This document shows positions 7,982-14,909 of a DNA stretch of 34,690 nucleotides, one piece after another. The notes beneath the pieces are model-generated. The model saw only the letters and a program-made list of their open reading frames with translations. It was not told the DNA's origin and made no database searches. This DNA comes from an uncultured Lachnospiraceae bacterium (GTDB lineage: Bacteria > Bacillota > Clostridia > Lachnospirales > Lachnospiraceae): contig CANOVJ010000046.1 of the NCBI GenBank assembly GCA_947570615.1, positions 1 to 34,690 on the forward strand, in the 5' to 3' direction. Numbering within the stretch: the stretch's first letter is position 1; each line of letters opens with the position of its first letter. The position numbers and the translations under genes are program-made.

Positions 7982-9085
7982 CTAATCAAAAGACGGAGAA
8001 TAGGACGTTGAGGGAAAGTGGAGCAGATTGATACGGACATATTCATCCAGAATGGCGCCGTAGTAGAAGAAAAGCAGCCAGAGAAAGATGCCCAGAACGA
8101 TATGACCGTTTTTTCCCAATCTGCGGATAACAGGGACTTTATCCATCCAGTGAAGAAAGTTAAAAGGCAAAAATACAGTAAGCCAAAGTTGCATGATAAC
8201 GGCGATCAGCTCCAGAATCATTGTCTGAGGAGTACGGGCGCATTCCAGAACGCGCAGCAGGCTCAGGAAAGGCATAAAGGCATAGTAGCACAGAGCCAGA
8301 GCCCGTCTGCGGGGGGTTCCGGTACGAAAGCCCGGCCAGATGCTCCGGTCCCGGCCGCGGCTCTTTAGTCCCGCCAGAATCGGACTGACAGTCTGATATC
8401 TTTTTTCAGGACCGATCTGAGTGCAGATGCGGATGATCTCCCCCAGCTTCCCCCTCTGCCAGGTCTGTATCCGTGGAAAAACGCCGGTCAGCATCACATT
8501 AATCAGAATACCGACGGAGTAAATATCGGCCCGCTGGTCGCTCTGGCCACCGCCGAACTGTTCCGGGGCGGCGAATCCCGGCGTTCCGAGAATGGTGGTG
8601 TCATATCCCTGCCCTTTTCTGTAGAGTCTGCCGATATCAAAATCCAGTATTTTCAGAACCCCATCCGTAGAAACCAGCAGATTTTTTGGGTTGATATCCC
8701 GATGGACGATGTTTCTTCTGTGAATCTCATCAAGACCCCGGAGCAGCTGGCAGATGTAATCGATGGTCTGCTCTTCGCTGAAATACCCTGATTCCCTTAA
8801 GAGATCTTCCAGTGAACAGCCGCTGATATATTCCATGATTACCAGGGCGGCGCGTCTTCCGGCCGCCACATGAAAAATACGGACGAGATTCGGGTGGGAG
8901 ATTTCCATAAGCTGTTCGTAAAGAATCCCGTTTTCCGCAGGAACGTATTTTTTGACCACGATCTGTCCGCTCACGCTGTCTCTGGCCAGGAAGGTGGAGG
9001 GCGGCTGTCGGCTCCCCAGGGAGCACAGCTCCCGGTATCTCTCGCTCAGATAATCAAATTTTAACTGCTGTGTTACTTCCTGCAT
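7982..9085 (-). CDS. Membrane-anchored Hanks-type Ser/Thr protein kinase
   Basis: The 367-residue protein has a kinase domain at about residues 15-250 and two or three C-terminal membrane helices (about 275-355); it has no PASTA repeats. Seen: the ATP-binding lysine in IVVKKYV (45/46), catalytic loop IVHRDINPKN (D130, N135), metal-binding aspartate in ILDFDIGR (D148; DFD replaces DFG, a variant common in Firmicute kinases of this type), activation segment GTPGFAAPEQFG and DIYSVGIL. A classic GxGxxG loop is not recognisable (SLGSRQPPSTFLAR). The ATG at 9085 is chosen because GGGGAGT lies 5 bases upstream; the frame continues to 9319 without another ribosome site. It diverges from a small HTH-like gene. 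Substrates are unknown. Confidence 0.9.
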   Translation of the reverse strand: MQEVTQQLKFDYLSERYRELCSLGSRQPPSTFLARDSVSGQIVVKKYVPAENGILYEQLMEISHPNLVRIFHVAAGRRAALVIMEYISGCSLEDLLRESGYFSEEQTIDYICQLLRGLDEIHRRNIVHRDINPKNLLVSTDGVLKILDFDIGRLYRKGQGYDTTILGTPGFAAPEQFGGGQSDQRADIYSVGILINVMLTGVFPRIQTWQRGKLGEIIRICTQIGPEKRYQTVSPILAGLKSRGRDRSIWPGFRTGTPRRRALALCYYAFMPFLSLLRVLECARTPQTMILELIAVIMQLWLTVFLPFNFLHWMDKVPVIRRLGKNGHIVLGIFLWLLFFYYGAILDEYVRINLLHFPSTSYSPSFD

Positions 9086-9176
9086 GGTTACTCCCCGTAT
9101 ATTCTGTTTGACGAAAGCTTTGCGATTGACTATACTTTTTTTAAATATATCAGATTTTATCGGAAAGGTCATCACT

Positions 9177-9596
9177 TTGAATAAAAATACGCAGGAGCTG
9201 CTCAGGTCCTTAAAGCACACAAAAAATATAGAAGCATGGCTGACGGAGAACGCGGAGATTTTCGAGAATGTTCCTCTGTGGAGGTATCTGGAAAGGCTGA
9301 TCGCCGAGAAGGGAATCAAAAAGAGCCAGTGTATTCAGAATGCGCTCCTCCAGCGCAATTACGGCTATCAGATTTTTTCCGGGGAGCGTACGCCTTCCCG
9401 GGATAAGGTGATTGCCCTGTGCCTGGCCATGGGTCTGACGCCGGAGGAAGCCCATTCTCTGCTCTGTCATACCGGGTTTTCGGATATTTATCCCAAAAAC
9501 AGGCGAGACAGCGTTCTGATCTTTGCGCTGGAGAGAAAGCTTACAGTTCTGGAGACCAATGAACTGCTGTATGAGCTGGGGGAGGAGCTTCTGTAG
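9177..9596 (+). CDS. HTH-like partner protein of the Ser/Thr kinase
   Basis: The 139-residue protein starts at a TTG preceded by GGAAAGG; an upstream extension of the frame to 9084 would run through the divergent promoter region. The core (LERLIAEKGIKKSQCIQNAL, YGYQIFSGERTPSRDKVIAL, GLTPEEAHSLLCHTGF) has the helical pattern of an XRE-type HTH. It is followed by a conserved ending (RRDSVLIFALERKLTVLETN, ELLYELGEELL). From memory, this family often sits beside Hanks-type kinases in Clostridia. It may be a DNA-binding effector or phosphorylation target of the adjacent kinase; that is inference. No membrane segment or signal peptide is seen. Confidence 0.8.
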   Translation: MNKNTQELLRSLKHTKNIEAWLTENAEIFENVPLWRYLERLIAEKGIKKSQCIQNALLQRNYGYQIFSGERTPSRDKVIALCLAMGLTPEEAHSLLCHTGFSDIYPKNRRDSVLIFALERKLTVLETNELLYELGEELL

Positions 9597-9662
9597 ACGG
9601 GAAAGTATGGAAATAAATCTGACACCGACTGGTTTCACAGCCCGTTATAAAAGAAGTGGGGC

Positions 9663-9691
9663 TTGAGCGCTTCTTTCCATTATGTTAAAAT
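9663..9691 (+). promoter_or_regulatory. Promoter of the four-gene signalling operon
   Basis: -35 TTGAGC (9663-9668), 17-base spacer, -10 TAAAAT (9686-9691). It overlaps a small hairpin (AAGAAGTG / CGCTTCTT, 9651-9675) that may instead end the preceding HTH gene. A leader of about 60 bases precedes the TTG start of the first operon gene. Confidence 0.55.
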
Positions 9692-9760
9692 CAGAGCAGG
9701 CGCTGCCACGCGCTGCGGGGAGGCGGACTGTAATAAAACAAAAGAAAAGCAGGTGGGACA

Positions 9761-10858
9761 TTGAACAAAGCGGGACTTACGCTCTTATCAGTTATATACA
9801 GCGTCATCATTCTTTTTTCCTTCTCACTTCCCGCCCGCGGACAGGAGATGGAGGATCCGGCGGCCCTGCGGGCGGCGTATGAGGATTACCGGCAGCGCAT
9901 GGAGAGAATCGAAAACAGCGCGCAGATCGGGGACGCGGGCTTTGAGGTGATCGAGGAACAGATTTTCCCAATCGAGATGAGGGGATACGGGGAGGTCTCC
10001 ATGATTCCCGCGCTGGATAAGGAATATTGCAGGCTGGCGCTCTTTTTTGCGGATCAGACCGGGACGGTTGTATACCGGACGGATCAGCTCGAGGCCAACA
10101 ACAGAAGCCGCGGGCAGATGAGGCAGCCCATCAGGGAGCTGCGGGCGGTCTCGGTCAGGGAGCTGGACGGGGACGGGCTGATGGATATCATCCTGATCAC
10201 CACCTGTGTCAACGAGAGCGGCCCTTATGCGGGAAAACCATACAAGATCGGAGACGTGCTGTTCCAAAATGAGGAGGGGTTTTACTGGGATTACCGGCTC
10301 TCAGACAAGATCAACCGCTTCAGCATGAACAAAAGCGCGGAGACCATTGCCGCCTTTGTAAAGGGAGGGCGTTCCACGGAGTTTCTCTATACGGCGGCCA
10401 CCAGGCAGGAGCTGGTGCGCAGGGGCTTTGTGATTGCCAGGGAGCAGTGCTATTTCCGGCAGTTTGAGAAGCTGGGGAGGCTGGAGGTGGTCCCGGGGAC
10501 TTACACCATGGCGGATTTTGACATTTTCATGATTTATCTGATCAATGAGGACGGGTATATTGTGTGGAGCCTGCAGCCCATGGGGGATTACGACAATCTT
10601 TACGCGCTTAAGGGGATTACCTGCCGGGATATCGACGGGGACGGGATGAAGGATATTCTGGTCCTGGCCCGTTACAGCTATGAGGGGAGCATGAGCGAGC
10701 TGAACGCGGTGAATGATTACTCCGTTTACTATCAGCGCACCAGCGGGTTTGTGGAGGATACGGAGATCAAAAAGCAGAACCCCTGCACGGAACAGGATAC
10801 GGTGGCGGATCTGGTGGAAAAGGCCAGAGCTTACTGGGGATGGAAGGCAGAATCATGA
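9761..10858 (+). CDS. Secreted protein with two FG-GAP/VCBS-like calcium-loop repeats
   Basis: The 365-residue protein has an N-terminal signal or anchor segment (LTLLSVIYSVIILFSFSLPA, ending near ARGQ). Two Asp-rich loops lie in similar settings: RELDGDGLMDIILITTC (about 132) and CRDIDGDGMKDILVLARY (about 290). These match the calcium-binding DxDGDGxxD pattern of FG-GAP/VCBS beta-propeller blades. Start is a TTG after AGGTGGG. It is the first gene of an operon in which the next start codon overlaps its stop (ATGA at 10855-10858). Because it is translationally coupled to a two-component system, a role as an extracytoplasmic sensor or ligand-binding partner is plausible but unproven. Confidence 0.8.
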   Translation: MNKAGLTLLSVIYSVIILFSFSLPARGQEMEDPAALRAAYEDYRQRMERIENSAQIGDAGFEVIEEQIFPIEMRGYGEVSMIPALDKEYCRLALFFADQTGTVVYRTDQLEANNRSRGQMRQPIRELRAVSVRELDGDGLMDIILITTCVNESGPYAGKPYKIGDVLFQNEEGFYWDYRLSDKINRFSMNKSAETIAAFVKGGRSTEFLYTAATRQELVRRGFVIAREQCYFRQFEKLGRLEVVPGTYTMADFDIFMIYLINEDGYIVWSLQPMGDYDNLYALKGITCRDIDGDGMKDILVLARYSYEGSMSELNAVNDYSVYYQRTSGFVEDTEIKKQNPCTEQDTVADLVEKARAYWGWKAES

Positions 10859-11514
10859 TTAAAATACTTATAGTGGACGATGAAAAGGCAATCTGCGATT
10901 TGATAGACCTGAATCTGACGGCGTCGGGGTATCACTGCCAGACAGTACAGAACGGGCTGGACGCCATCGATATGATAGAGAAGGAGAGCTTTGACCTGAT
11001 CCTTCTGGATATCATGCTTCCGGGGGCGGACGGCTATGATGTGATGGAGTACATACGCCCCTTAAAGATCCCGGTGATCTTTATCACCGCGAAACATGAG
11101 GTGCGGGACCGGGTAAAGGGGCTCAAGCTGGGAGCCGACGACTATCTGGTCAAGCCCTTCGATGTGGTGGAGCTGGTGGCCAGGGTGGAGGCGGTGCTGC
11201 GCCGCTACAATAAGGCGGACAGAGAGCTCACCGCCGGGGATGTGGTGGTGGACGTGGAGGCCCGCAGAGTGGTAAAGGGCGGGAATCCGGTGGTGCTCAC
11301 CAACAAGGAGTTCGGTCTTCTGGTTCTTTTTATGCAGAATAAAAATGTAGCGTTGTTTCGGGAGACGCTCTATGAAAAGGTATGGGAGGATGAGTATATC
11401 AGCGACAGCCGTACCCTGGATCTCCACGTGCAGCGCCTTCGCAAAAAACTTGGATGGGAGCAGAGTCTGGTAGCGGTCTACAAGGTCGGCTACCGGCTAG
11501 AGGTGCCGCAATGA
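10855..11514 (+). CDS. OmpR/PhoB-family response regulator
   Basis: The 219-residue protein has a receiver domain (1-115: acidic pair in IVDDE, phospho-acceptor D52 in LLDIMLP, Thr in FITAKH, Lys in LVKPFD). A winged-helix DNA-binding domain follows (about 130-219: LTNKEFGLLVLFMQN, SRTLDLHVQRLRKKL, VYKVGYRLE). The ATG at 10855 overlaps the stop of the preceding gene as ATGA and has GGAAGG upstream. Its own stop overlaps the next ATG in the same way. PhoB-type regulators bind tandem repeats about 11 bp apart. Such an array lies at 13831-13896, upstream of the amidase gene, and is a candidate target. Confidence 0.95.
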   Translation: MIKILIVDDEKAICDLIDLNLTASGYHCQTVQNGLDAIDMIEKESFDLILLDIMLPGADGYDVMEYIRPLKIPVIFITAKHEVRDRVKGLKLGADDYLVKPFDVVELVARVEAVLRRYNKADRELTAGDVVVDVEARRVVKGGNPVVLTNKEFGLLVLFMQNKNVALFRETLYEKVWEDEYISDSRTLDLHVQRLRKKLGWEQSLVAVYKVGYRLEVPQ

Positions 11515-12974
11515 AATTTTCTTCAAAGCTGCTTTTGTGTACCATGATCGTCATGGCCATCGCGCTGGGACTGAGCGGTTTTTATTTTGTGAACAGCGTG
11601 TTTGAAACCTCCCTGGAGAGGGAGGCAGGGCAGGCGCTGGATGAAAACAGTATTCTGTGCTTTGCCTTTGAGACGGCTGCCCTGAACGTGCCCGCCAAAT
11701 ATGACGTGCTGCAGGACAGCACGGTGGAGCAGGTGGCCTCCAATCTGGAGCGTTCGGGACAGAGCACCGGCCGGATGATCCGCCTCTCCGACGAGGAGAA
11801 GCAGCCCCTCTTTGCCAGCGACGGATTCGAGACGGACGACGAGCTTCTGGCGCAGATCGACGCCGTCACCAGGGCCTACCGCACCATTTATCTGAACGGA
11901 CATTATTATATCCAGACCGGAAGCACGGTGAATGCGCTGGACCGGGTGCTGTATCTGGAAACCCTGCGGGATGTGTCGGTGGTATTCGACGAGCGCGCGC
12001 TGGGCTTTCGGGTCTACCGTCAGATCACCCTGGCGATGCTGGTTCTGGGCATGGCCATCATGCATCTGATCTCCTTTCTGCTGACCAGGCCCATCCGGCT
12101 GCTCACAAGGGCCACCAGGCAGATGGCGGCGGGGGATTATTCCTCCCGGGCCCGGAAGGTCAGCAACGACGAGCTGGGGCAGCTCACCCTGGATTTTAAC
12201 CACATGGCCGGGGCGCTGGAGGAGAACATCAACAAGCTGGAGGATGAGATCCAGGCGAAGGAGGACTTTGTGGGGGCTTTTGCCCATGAGCTGAAAACGC
12301 CTCTGACGGCCATCATCGGCTATGCGGATATGCTCCGCTCCAGGAAGCTGGACGAGGAAAAGAGTCTTCTGTCCGCCAACTATATTTATACGGAAGGGAA
12401 AAGGCTGGAGGCCATGTCCATAAGGCTTCTGGAGATCATGGTCACCCGCCACGGGCAGGCTCATTTCCAGGAGGTGCAGGCGCAGGCGCTGTTCCAGTAT
12501 GTGCAGGACATGTTCCGCACTAACGAGAGCATGAGATTCACCTATTCCTGTGAGAGGGCGCTGGTGTGGGCGGAGAGTAATCTGATTATCACGGTGCTGA
12601 TCAACCTTCTGGACAACGCCTGCAAGGCCTCGGAGCCGGGGAGCGTTATCGAGGTCAGCGGCCAGGTATGTGAGGAAGGGTATCTTTTCAGGGTGCGGGA
12701 CCATGGAATCGGCATCCCAAAGGAGGAGCTTGAGAAGATCACCAAGGCCTTTTACATGGTGGACAAGTCCAGGGCCAGGGAGCAGAGCGGCGCGGGTCTG
12801 GGTCTGGCCCTGTGTACGGAGATCCTGAATCTGCATCACAGCAGCCTTTCCATTGAAAGCGCGCCGGGAGAGGGAACCTGTATCAGCTTTATGCTTCCTG
12901 GAAGAGACGGGGCGGCAGATGAGAAAAACGGATCCGGTTTATCCGCGCACAGAGAGGGATCGGAAGAAGAATGA
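11511..12974 (+). CDS. Membrane sensor histidine kinase, cognate to the PhoB-type regulator
   Basis: The 487-residue protein has a first membrane helix at about 8-28 and an extracellular sensor region at about 29-168. The second helix lies at about 171-191 (ITLAMLVLGMAIMHLISFLL). Then come HAMP (192-245), HisKA with H259 in GAFAHELKTPLTA, and HATPase with an N box (LINLLDNACKAS), G1 box (DHGIGIP) and G2 box (SGAGLGLALCTEI). Its start codon overlaps the regulator stop (ATGA at 11511), so the pair is translationally coupled. The sensor region shows no recognised PAS or Cache motif by eye. It is a typical class I kinase and presumably phosphorylates the regulator encoded just before it. Confidence 0.95.
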   Translation: MKFSSKLLLCTMIVMAIALGLSGFYFVNSVFETSLEREAGQALDENSILCFAFETAALNVPAKYDVLQDSTVEQVASNLERSGQSTGRMIRLSDEEKQPLFASDGFETDDELLAQIDAVTRAYRTIYLNGHYYIQTGSTVNALDRVLYLETLRDVSVVFDERALGFRVYRQITLAMLVLGMAIMHLISFLLTRPIRLLTRATRQMAAGDYSSRARKVSNDELGQLTLDFNHMAGALEENINKLEDEIQAKEDFVGAFAHELKTPLTAIIGYADMLRSRKLDEEKSLLSANYIYTEGKRLEAMSIRLLEIMVTRHGQAHFQEVQAQALFQYVQDMFRTNESMRFTYSCERALVWAESNLIITVLINLLDNACKASEPGSVIEVSGQVCEEGYLFRVRDHGIGIPKEELEKITKAFYMVDKSRAREQSGAGLGLALCTEILNLHHSSLSIESAPGEGTCISFMLPGRDGAADEKNGSGLSAHREGSEEE

Positions 12975-13801
12975 AGAAGACAACCATCAATTTTACCCTG
13001 TTTTTGCTGGCCCTGCTGATCATGGCGCTGTCCATCTGGGGGCCTGAGTATCTCGCGGTCTATAAGGATGGGAGGGTGCTCGACCGGATCCAGACATATA
13101 CCGCCGAGGCGGAGGGAGAAGGGTACCGTTATACGCTGAGCGGCAATGAGAAGCTCTATATCCTCTCCCAGTGCCTGAACAGCCAGACTCTGCCGGAGAG
13201 CGAGCAGAACGCCTTAACCCGCACAGGCACGGAGGGGGCGGAGCTCCAGGAGCTGGAGGGAACCTACGCCTTTGTGGTGAACCACCGGGGACCTGCGGGG
13301 AAGGAGATCACCCGGGAGGAAATCTTTTCCACATGTAATGAAACGATCGCCTCACTAAAGGCCCTGGGGGTTCTGCCGCAGACACTCAGGGAGGTGGAGG
13401 GGGCGGACTATGAGGCGGTTCTCTATTCCGCCATCGATGTGCTTGAGCCCAGAAACAATGTGGCCGTGTGGAAGCTGAGCCTGCTCAGCAACACCCGGAA
13501 CGCGGATAAATCCAACCGCCTTATTGATGTCTGCCTGGACGCGGACGACGGAAGACCCTATGAATTTTATGCCAGGACCGAGCTGAAATGGGAGGAGATA
13601 GACCCGGATCAGATGATTGAGGAATGGAGGAAATATATGGGACTCGATGCGCCTGCGCCCTATGAGACGGAGAATCCTCTGCTGGAGGCCACGCCCTATT
13701 ACAAAAAGTATGTGTTCTCCGGTATGGAGGAGGAGAGAACCATTGTAACCATCGGATTTTATGAAGGGATCAACGAGCTTTTTCTGAAGATTTCCAGGTA
13801 G
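12971..13801 (+). CDS. Exported or membrane-anchored protein of unknown function, part of the TCS operon
   Basis: The 276-residue protein has an N-terminal hydrophobic segment (INFTLFLLALLIMALSIWGP, residues 6-25) that acts as signal peptide or anchor. The remainder is soluble and presumably extracytoplasmic, with no Cys-rich or repeat signature and no motif I recognise. Its ATG overlaps the kinase stop (ATGA at 12971), continuing the same coupling seen along the operon. GGAAGAAG precedes the start. Together with the first operon gene, this flanks the regulator/kinase pair with two extracytoplasmic proteins. It may modulate the kinase or act on the envelope (inference). No terminator hairpin is evident before the repeat array at 13831. 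Confidence 0.75.
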   Translation: MKKTTINFTLFLLALLIMALSIWGPEYLAVYKDGRVLDRIQTYTAEAEGEGYRYTLSGNEKLYILSQCLNSQTLPESEQNALTRTGTEGAELQELEGTYAFVVNHRGPAGKEITREEIFSTCNETIASLKALGVLPQTLREVEGADYEAVLYSAIDVLEPRNNVAVWKLSLLSNTRNADKSNRLIDVCLDADDGRPYEFYARTELKWEEIDPDQMIEEWRKYMGLDAPAPYETENPLLEATPYYKKYVFSGMEEERTIVTIGFYEGINELFLKISR

Positions 13802-13830
13802 ACCCGGCGCGGATGCGGCTCTCTGAAAAG

Positions 13831-13896
13831 ATGCAAAAAGGATGCAGAAATGATGGAAGTCTGATGGAAATATGATGATAAAATGATGCACCTTTC
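13831..13896 (+). repeat. Six tandem 11-bp direct repeats, candidate response-regulator binding array
   Basis: Units begin with ATG at 13831, 13842, 13853, 13864, 13875 and 13886, exactly 11 bases apart: ATGCAAAAAGG, ATGCAGAAATG, ATGGAAGTCTG, ATGGAAATATG, ATGATAAAATG, ATGCACCTTTC. ATG is kept in 6 of 6 units, A at position 5 in 5 of 6, and G at position 11 in 5 of 6. The array lies just after the PhoB-type TCS operon and just before the amidase. A weak -10 (TAGACT, 13900-13905) would place the -35 inside the fifth unit. That is the geometry of activation by PhoB-like regulators bound head to tail once per helical turn. Confidence 0.75.
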
Positions 13897-13943
13897 AGTT
13901 AGACTCACAGGTAAGAGTTAACTGCAAAGGAGCATCATTTTTT

Positions 13944-14909
13944 ATGGGAATGGGAAGATACGAACGGGGAAAAGGTTTTTTAAGATTCTGTCTGTGTACG
14001 GCCCTGACGGCGGGAATACTGGGGATGAGCGCTTTTCAGGTGATGGCCTGGGCTGCGCCAGAAGGGTTCGGGGCGGCGAATGGGCCAAAGGAGGCGTCCG
14101 CAGTGAACGGGGAGAGGGAGCAGAAGACAGCGGAGAGGCCGGAGCCGGAGCAGCGCAGGCAGCAGGAAGAAAAACGGCGCAGGCAGGGAGAGAGCGGGAT
14201 GAAGGCCGCCGAGGGGACGCTCCGCCAAACGCCCGCAGATGAAAGGACGGCGTCTGCGGATACAGAGAAGGAGAATGCGCTGTCCCCGCAGGAGCAGCCG
14301 CCTCTGATCGCCATCGACCCGGGACACGGGGGAATGGACTGCGGCTGTATGGGAAAGCTTTCCTCAGAGAAGGATCTCAATCTTCAGATTGCCAGGGCCC
14401 TCCAGACGGCGCTCATGGAAAAGGGCTACCGGGTTCTGCTTCTTCGGGAGAAGGACGAACTGCAGGACAAGCTGGACCGGGTGGAGATCGCCAACAGCTA
14501 TCAGGCGGATCTGTACATAAGCATTCATCAGAATACCTACGAGGGACAGGATAAGAGCGTGGGCGGGATCGAAACCTGGTATGACGGAGCGGACGCAGCC
14601 CGGGATAATCAGAGGCTGGCCCTTCTGGTTCACCGGGAGACGGTGAAGAGCTCCGGGGCCAGAGGGCGCAGCGTGATCGACAGTCAGGATCTGTATGTGG
14701 TGAGCAAAACGCTGATGCCAGCCTGTCTGATCGAGACCGGTTTTCTCTCGAACCCCCAGGAGGAAGCGCTCCTCGCCTCCTCCGGTTATCAGAGGAAGCT
14801 GGCGGAGGGGATCGCACGGGGGATCGAGCTGTACTTTCACCCGGCGGATACATACCTTCCGTTCAGGGAGGTGTCCGGCGGTTTTATGAACCTGCGGGAA
14901 AAAAATTAA
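13944..14909 (+). CDS. N-acetylmuramoyl-L-alanine amidase (Amidase_3), secreted
   Basis: Zinc-dependent peptidoglycan hydrolase that cleaves the bond between MurNAc and L-Ala. The 321-residue protein has a signal peptide (about 11-37: FLRFCLCTALTAGILGMSAF, ending MAWA) and a charged low-complexity linker rich in Glu, Arg, Gln and Lys (about 40-115). The catalytic domain (about 120-310) has zinc ligands H128 (IDPGHGG), E142 (SSEKDLNLQ) and H195 (ISIHQNTYEG), and catalytic E264 (CLIETGFLSN). AAAGGAG lies 11 bases before the first ATG and 17 before the second (MGRYERG), so the first is preferred. Six 11-bp repeats upstream suggest control by the PhoB-type system encoded immediately before it. 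Confidence 0.95.
   Translation: MGMGRYERGKGFLRFCLCTALTAGILGMSAFQVMAWAAPEGFGAANGPKEASAVNGEREQKTAERPEPEQRRQQEEKRRRQGESGMKAAEGTLRQTPADERTASADTEKENALSPQEQPPLIAIDPGHGGMDCGCMGKLSSEKDLNLQIARALQTALMEKGYRVLLLREKDELQDKLDRVEIANSYQADLYISIHQNTYEGQDKSVGGIETWYDGADAARDNQRLALLVHRETVKSSGARGRSVIDSQDLYVVSKTLMPACLIETGFLSNPQEEALLASSGYQRKLAEGIARGIELYFHPADTYLPFREVSGGFMNLREKN

Follow-up and report, generated by a model that had tools for sequence, protein, structure and literature searches.

Organization of the locus and of the repeat array

The stretch analysed here, 34,690 nucleotides of an uncultured Lachnospiraceae bacterium (GenBank assembly GCA_947570615.1, contig CANOVJ010000046.1; hereafter the window), carries an operon for a PhoB-type two-component system followed by a gene for a cell-wall amidase, and between them a row of six 11-base-pair (bp) direct repeats. 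The array lies 28 bp past the stop codon of U276, the last gene of the operon, and 48 bp ahead of the Amidase_3 gene (Table 1). Our findings suggest that it is probably the operator of the adjoining two-component system, through which an envelope regulon including the amidase would be activated.

The six units stand in exact register and are similar, non-identical and led by GATG. The original prediction, made from the letters of this DNA, described six ATG-led units at 11-bp steps; their number and perfect phasing hold, and each unit begins one base ahead of the ATG because the shared core is GATG. Neither strand of the window has another place where ATG recurs three or more times at period 11. 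Across 400 dinucleotide-shuffled copies of the window, ATG at this period gave a longest run of 2 in 263 copies, 3 in 134 and 4 in 3, compared with 6 observed, and when any non-homopolymer trinucleotide at periods 8 to 14 was allowed, the longest run in 60 shuffles was at most 4. Direct repeats of about one helical turn per unit, sited in a promoter, form the layout of an OmpR/PhoB-type operator, and the array has this layout. Period-11 look-alikes led by GATG or GATA were met at G043:C107:83804-83906 (GATGTTCCACC type) and G000:C18:57294-57330 (GATGCTTCTCC type), where they are apparently coding minisatellites.

The regulator combines a receiver domain with a Trans_reg_C winged helix and so belongs to the OmpR/PhoB family, and it scores under the cut-off of every NCBIfam model among the matches listed (25 of 102). 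The list of open reading frames (ORFs) starts it at 10840 and the histidine kinase at 11454. The FGGAP protein begins with a signal-like segment and the amidase with a hydrophobic one, both judged by eye; the FGGAP gene adjoins the regulator gene in related loci as well. For U276, no Pfam or NCBIfam family match was found.

Table 1. Genes and sequence elements of the locus, in window coordinates
Feature	Position	Strand	Basis
FGGAP, first gene of the conserved locus	9761..10858	+	Pfam FG-GAP_3 E 8.7e-5, under the curated cut-off (weak FG-GAP repeats)
OmpR/PhoB-family response regulator, presumed array binder	10855..11514	+	Response_reg 3.1e-30, Trans_reg_C 1.5e-20
Histidine kinase with HAMP, HisKA and HATPase_c	11511..12974	+	Pfam; best NCBIfam match WalK, 187 bits (cut-off 725)
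U276, 276-amino-acid protein with one N-terminal hydrophobic segment, fourth operon gene	12971..13801	+	
Predicted operator array, six 11-bp direct repeats, consensus GATGCA-N5	13830..13895	+	Sequence, shuffles, conservation in relatives
Unit starts	13830, 13841, 13852, 13863, 13874, 13885	+	Sequence
Unit sequences, in order	GATGCAAAAAG, GATGCAGAAAT, GATGGAAGTCT, GATGGAAATAT, GATGATAAAAT, GATGCACCTTT		
-10-like element TAGACT, beginning 15 bp after the start of the last unit	13900..13905	+	Offset common to relatives
Terminator-like hairpin (5' arm 13880-13906, loop 13907-13914, 3' arm 13915-13941)	13880..13941	+	
Ribosome-binding site AAAGGAG of the amidase, within the hairpin 3' arm	13926..13932	+	Sequence, pairing
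T-run (TTTTTT) ending the hairpin, directly ahead of the amidase ATG	13938..13943	+	Sequence
Amidase_3 N-acetylmuramoyl-L-alanine amidase, presumed target	13944..14909	+	Pfam PF01520 E 2e-46

Conservation of the array in related genomes

A DNA search of 40 genomes with window positions 13700-14000 as the query matched 19, that of the window included, all of the same genus. A regulator search of titled genome records gave 237 relatives, of which the best 80 (82-94% identical) were used. The gene order FGGAP, response regulator, histidine kinase, U276, array and amidase is conserved. Under a strict threshold, which asked for 20 matching bases out of the 24 in four units, 61 of the 80 loci show the array, usually just past U276 and ahead of the amidase. 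A second, relaxed score was linked to the spacing from the -10, and amidases were detected by tblastn (E<=1e-5). Arrays in 11-bp phase and with the fixed -10 spacing were present in 62 of the 65 loci that have both U276 and a detectable amidase, versus 2 of the 13 loci, searched over 400 bp, in which U276 occurs and no amidase was detectable (Fisher p 3e-9). The two further loci lack U276. Among these 13 loci, L322 stops at U276, and in L317 a strict array lies some 3.5 kb beyond. By the original prediction's own account, relatives that retain operon and amidase and yet have lost the phasing and the core would tell against it; such loss was looked for at these loci and not seen, the array being present at 62 and weak at the other three.

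In a more distant genus (g30), whose regulators are 80-84% identical to that of the window, all six loci with an amidase show a drifted array whose spacing to the -10 is unchanged, and the one locus without an amidase has no array; one g30 locus (L347) is, by sequence, the same contig as L333 of the 80 loci.

The neighbourhood of the array varies at a few loci. At L287 (8883-9880) and L341 ([Clostridium] citroniae; 8886-9927), the two loci with an array and no detectable amidase, it precedes a gene that by eye is polysaccharide deacetylase-like, instead of an amidase. At L268 (9693-11057) a MATE-like transporter gene lies between U276 and the array, which remains with the amidase.

Promoter layout and number of units

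A weak -10 ending the array, with its -35 inside the array, was part of the original prediction; we find instead that the conserved -10-like element lies outside the array and that there is no recognisable -35 at the matching distance, a simple sigma-70 scan of the window giving no promoter there. The spacing of the -10-like element is fixed: TAnnnT occurs 15 bp past the start of the last unit in 61 of 61 operon-adjacent arrays and in 124 of 131 distal sites, that is, arrays elsewhere in the genomes, although the anchoring allowed the last unit a shift of one register and slightly favours this result. The rest of the 131 comprise six unanchored sites and one merged as a duplicate. In an unforced profile of 119 even-numbered distal sites, T, A and T stand at the TAnnnT positions in 96%, 97% and 96%, respectively. 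The four known arrays of the window's genome have TAGACT (window), TATTCT (L129), TAGAAT (L130) and TATGAT (L131) at this offset. No recognisable -35 was seen at operon-adjacent or distal arrays, where the repeat row occupies its place at a constant distance.

The unit number is mostly even. Operon-adjacent arrays (n=61) have 4 units in 19 cases, 6 in 34, 8 in 6 and 7 in 2, both of the last doubtful; anchored distal sites (n=124) have 4 in 93, 6 in 20, 8 in 2, 5 in 8 and 3 in 1. Distal sites were located with a four-unit pattern to which shorter ones are invisible, and parity is therefore informative only for the longer sites; those of more than four units are even in 22 cases and odd in 8. 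The proposal that six units could seat three dimers agrees with these numbers, which are those that dimers would give.

Distal sites and candidate regulon

Counts for distal sites rest on 122 stretches (L129-L250) drawn among the matches listed, with amidase sites, and eleven places that were coding-like or at contig ends, left out of the set. An N-terminal hydrophobic segment is predicted in 108 of the 123 distinct ORFs downstream of distal arrays versus 60 of the 225 other ORFs of the same stretches. Many of the 15 ORFs without the segment have lipoprotein or membrane signals by eye, and a few probably have wrong starts. The 127 array-downstream ORFs form 13 groups of at least two members and 14 singletons. 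Annotated representatives include VIT/VWA and LRR proteins, an LtaS-like sulfatase, a polysaccharide deacetylase, and DUF5050, LysM, GH25 and GDSL proteins; for several of the downstream-ORF groups no family match was found. In the window's own genome, L129 lies ahead of a VIT/VWA protein, and L130 and L131 lie ahead of two proteins that match no known family and have a hydrophobic segment at the N-terminus. The candidate regulon would consist, in the window's genome or its relatives, mostly of exported envelope proteins, lipoproteins and the adjacent amidase included.

Two sequence features accompany some arrays. An inverted half-site, GGAGCATC, lies around the ribosome-binding site at some distal targets (such as L206, L217 and L236), and GCATC or GAGCAT follows the array at 14 of 125 distal versus 35 of 61 operon-adjacent sites.

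Co-occurrence of motif and regulator

Thirty-seven genomes of the genus were scanned for a 16-base GATG pattern, one mismatch being allowed, with the reversed pattern as control; the motif was found in 31 of the 37 and the control in one. The regulator ortholog is present in 29 genomes, the same 29 that encode U276. All 29 carry the motif, which occurs in only two of the eight genomes without the regulator, or in one if a coding-like match in G005 is set aside (Fisher p 1.2e-5 with every match or 8e-7 without G005, values that, like the Fisher value for the amidase, overstate the association because the genomes compared are related and not independent). Of these eight, six have no motif, G005 has its single coding-like match, which looks like chance, and G007 has two good-looking sites while lacking U276 and a regulator ortholog (best match 43% identity). 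G007 may have lost the operon recently, or its locus may be unassembled. Its arrays lie in L242 and L243, one of them ahead of a gene of the VIT/VWA group.

In 392 genomes of the order, a strict 24-base motif (at most two mismatches) was found in two, the window's genome and G216, whose regulator is 87% identical to that of the window. In seven further genomes of this sample the regulator reaches at least 80% identity and the strict motif is absent; at the locus, six of the seven show a drifted array ahead of the amidase, and the seventh lacks both amidase and array.

The recognition helix offers a second line of comparison. Five loci, with four distinct arrays, encode RTLELH instead of RTLDLH, and units that do not start with G make up 13 of 24 in the RTLELH arrays versus 18 of 358 elsewhere. 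The Glu of RTLELH would correspond, by residue numbers and our own alignment, to Glu215 of Mycobacterium tuberculosis PhoP, which is described as contacting bases (PMC4832192).

A terminator-like hairpin at the amidase

A hairpin overlaps the downstream end of the array. Its 5' arm includes the last repeat unit and the -10-like element, its 3' arm the ribosome-binding site of the amidase, and the remaining units lie outside the structure. The hairpin has a folding energy of -27.9 kcal/mol (z -7.6, equalled by none of 200 shuffles), and a stable hairpin followed by a T-run, as in the window, predicts intrinsic termination; a simple terminator scanner with rules of its own did not call it in the window. 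Four stretches were folded, of which three, the window included, fold strongly, and L251, which is cut too short for the 3' arm, does not.

Among operon-adjacent arrays (n=61), at least nine arm pairs were found in 55, z<=-3 in 36 and a T-run in 29; the corresponding numbers for distal sites (n=124) are 62, 21 and 3. Pairing of the 5' arm is stronger with its own 3' region than with a 3' region taken from another species; the mean difference is 4.6 kcal/mol at operon-adjacent and 0.7 at distal arrays, and the arm's own 3' region ranks in the best 5% in 27 of 61 versus 14 of 124 cases. These features suggest a terminator of the operon that might also hide the amidase ribosome-binding site in read-through RNA.

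Comparison with known systems

A PHO box stands in place of the -35 element. Its repeat units are 11 nucleotides long and are bound head to tail by PhoB/PhoP (PMC4415409); the present array shares the unit length, the place of the -35 and the predicted head-to-tail binding, and differs in half-site, targets and unit number. ArcA sites of Escherichia coli provide what seems the closest analogy: ArcA belongs to the same regulator family, and its sites are described as 11-bp centre-to-centre direct repeats, two to five in number (more than two in 92 of 158), holding several dimers each (PMC3798270). In that description three repeats are among the numbers seen and the position of the sites varies, whereas here the units are mostly 4, 6 or 8 at a fixed -10 distance; the GATGCA half-site and the envelope targets also set the present array apart. 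In the Clostridia, the OmpR-type RR_1586 of Clostridioides difficile is reported to bind the 11-base motif DRTTAAGNWWW twice as a direct repeat (PMC6222199), as is predicted here for another 11-base sequence, and its reported targets, in phosphate, sporulation or germination (PMC6222199), differ from the envelope targets predicted here. Membership of the PhoB phosphate system was considered and rejected, the regulator scoring 193.2 bits on TIGR02154 against a cut-off of 296.2.

The WalRK operon encodes the accessory membrane proteins YycHI. WalRK (YycFG) itself is the envelope two-component system of Bacilli, with targets that include cell-wall hydrolases and lipoteichoic acid synthesis (PMC10746227). 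The system described here resembles it in its predicted envelope-type targets, and may do so in having a putative accessory membrane protein encoded in its operon. It does not belong to WalRK by score (regulator 174.9 bits against the YycF cut-off of 340, kinase 187.3 against the WalK cut-off of 725), and the published WalR motif, TGTHH[N]6WGTNDD (PMC10746227), has TGT-type half-sites in place of GATGCA. No kinase above the WalK cut-off was found in the 37 genus genomes, and for U276 no link to YycH or YycI could be established. Among the matches listed in a search of the open-licence literature, subscription papers being outside its scope, no published account of the present system was found.

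Mode of action and alternative explanations

We infer binding by the adjoining regulator, activation rather than repression, and a block to read-through. The phosphorylated regulator would bind in head-to-tail fashion, each GATGCA half-site taking a monomer and each 22 bp a dimer, and two to four dimers would form one phased row on a single face of the helix. This row would most likely act as an activator, recruiting RNA polymerase to a promoter devoid of a -35, because its last half-site stops 9 bp short of the -10, in the usual place of a -35. At the amidase, the hairpin would stop transcripts reading through from the operon and cover the ribosome-binding site; a transcript from the array promoter would begin at about 13912 (an estimate), in the hairpin loop, and would lack the 5' arm, so that the amidase could be translated. 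The link from regulator to amidase through the array, as first proposed, gains support from the conservation of the array, the co-occurrence with the regulator, the mostly exported targets and the mostly even unit numbers.

Several observations weigh against this interpretation, in addition to the relatedness of the genomes and the invisibility of short distal sites. The array is weak at three loci that keep the amidase (L307, L311, L334), and at the threshold used no array was found upstream of the operon itself. Odd unit numbers do occur among the longer distal sites. The motif shift that accompanies the helix change is seen in one group only, and L348 and L350 keep RTLDLH yet have three of six units starting without G, so half-site drift is not tied to the helix residue alone. 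As regards the hairpin, a T-run was found, by our own test, in only 29 of the 61 operon-adjacent cases, arm pairing is common at distal sites too, and an alignment-based fold of 24 stretches retained only six near-invariant basal pairs, with no compensatory change. Finally, G007 has its two sites and no regulator ortholog.

This last genome, with sites and no neighbouring operon, also suits the idea that another regulator of the cell binds the OmpR-type array and that the neighbouring system is linked to it by position only. We consider this unlikely. The group encodes many OmpR-type regulators (15 matches with E<=1e-30 in G216), and the drift at L348 and L350 proceeds with no helix change; the motif nevertheless follows the regulator through the genus (29 of 29 versus 2, or 1, of 8), the sole other motif genome of the order sample carries the ortholog, and the array adjoins the operon at many Lachnospiraceae loci. 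Less likely still is that the system binds the array and represses most of its targets, shutting envelope genes when phosphorylated. WalR of Staphylococcus aureus is described as acting both ways according to site position (PMC10746227), and the last half-site is near the -10; the row, however, replaces the -35 at a constant distance at operon-adjacent and distal arrays alike, a layout of the activator type. That no protein binds the array, which would be a mutational repeat or an element of RNA or DNA structure, appears very improbable: many species share the register, the core and the spacing to the -10, with variable bases in between, and the reversed control occurs in one genome of 37 against 31 for the motif. 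In favour of this idea, the last unit belongs to a strong hairpin, and look-alikes of the same period that are seemingly coding do exist (for example G043:C107 and G000:C18); the other units, however, lie outside the hairpin.

The scope of this reading is wider than first proposed, extending from a single promoter to an apparent operator code, in many Lachnospiraceae, for an envelope regulon. Since the same predicted site lies ahead of many surface and cell-wall protein genes in relatives, the code of this control system would be readable, and it provides an operator and a testable list of envelope targets for a two-component system present at many gut Lachnospiraceae loci. A broader picture can be offered tentatively, and we regard it as rather doubtful in its full extent: a family-wide master regulator of the envelope in gut Lachnospiraceae, in the role that WalRK has in Bacilli, would need at least two contiguous dimers (4, 6 or 8 phased half-sites), with row length setting promoter strength, and at its own locus the operator would be fused with a terminator that ends the operon and hides the ribosome-binding site, leaving the amidase readable from the regulator's promoter only. 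Should the mostly even arrays and the operator-terminator overlap hold, the system would be a clean one for learning how the output of a promoter depends on rows of OmpR-type dimers and how a regulator operon insulates an adjoining target.

Other features of the window

Two minor features were noted away from the array. Within the histidine kinase gene, a 27-bp unit occurs twice in tandem at 12455-12507 (80% matching), amounting to a duplication of nine residues. On the minus strand, an ORF at 7982-9319 is serine/threonine protein kinase-like by eye.
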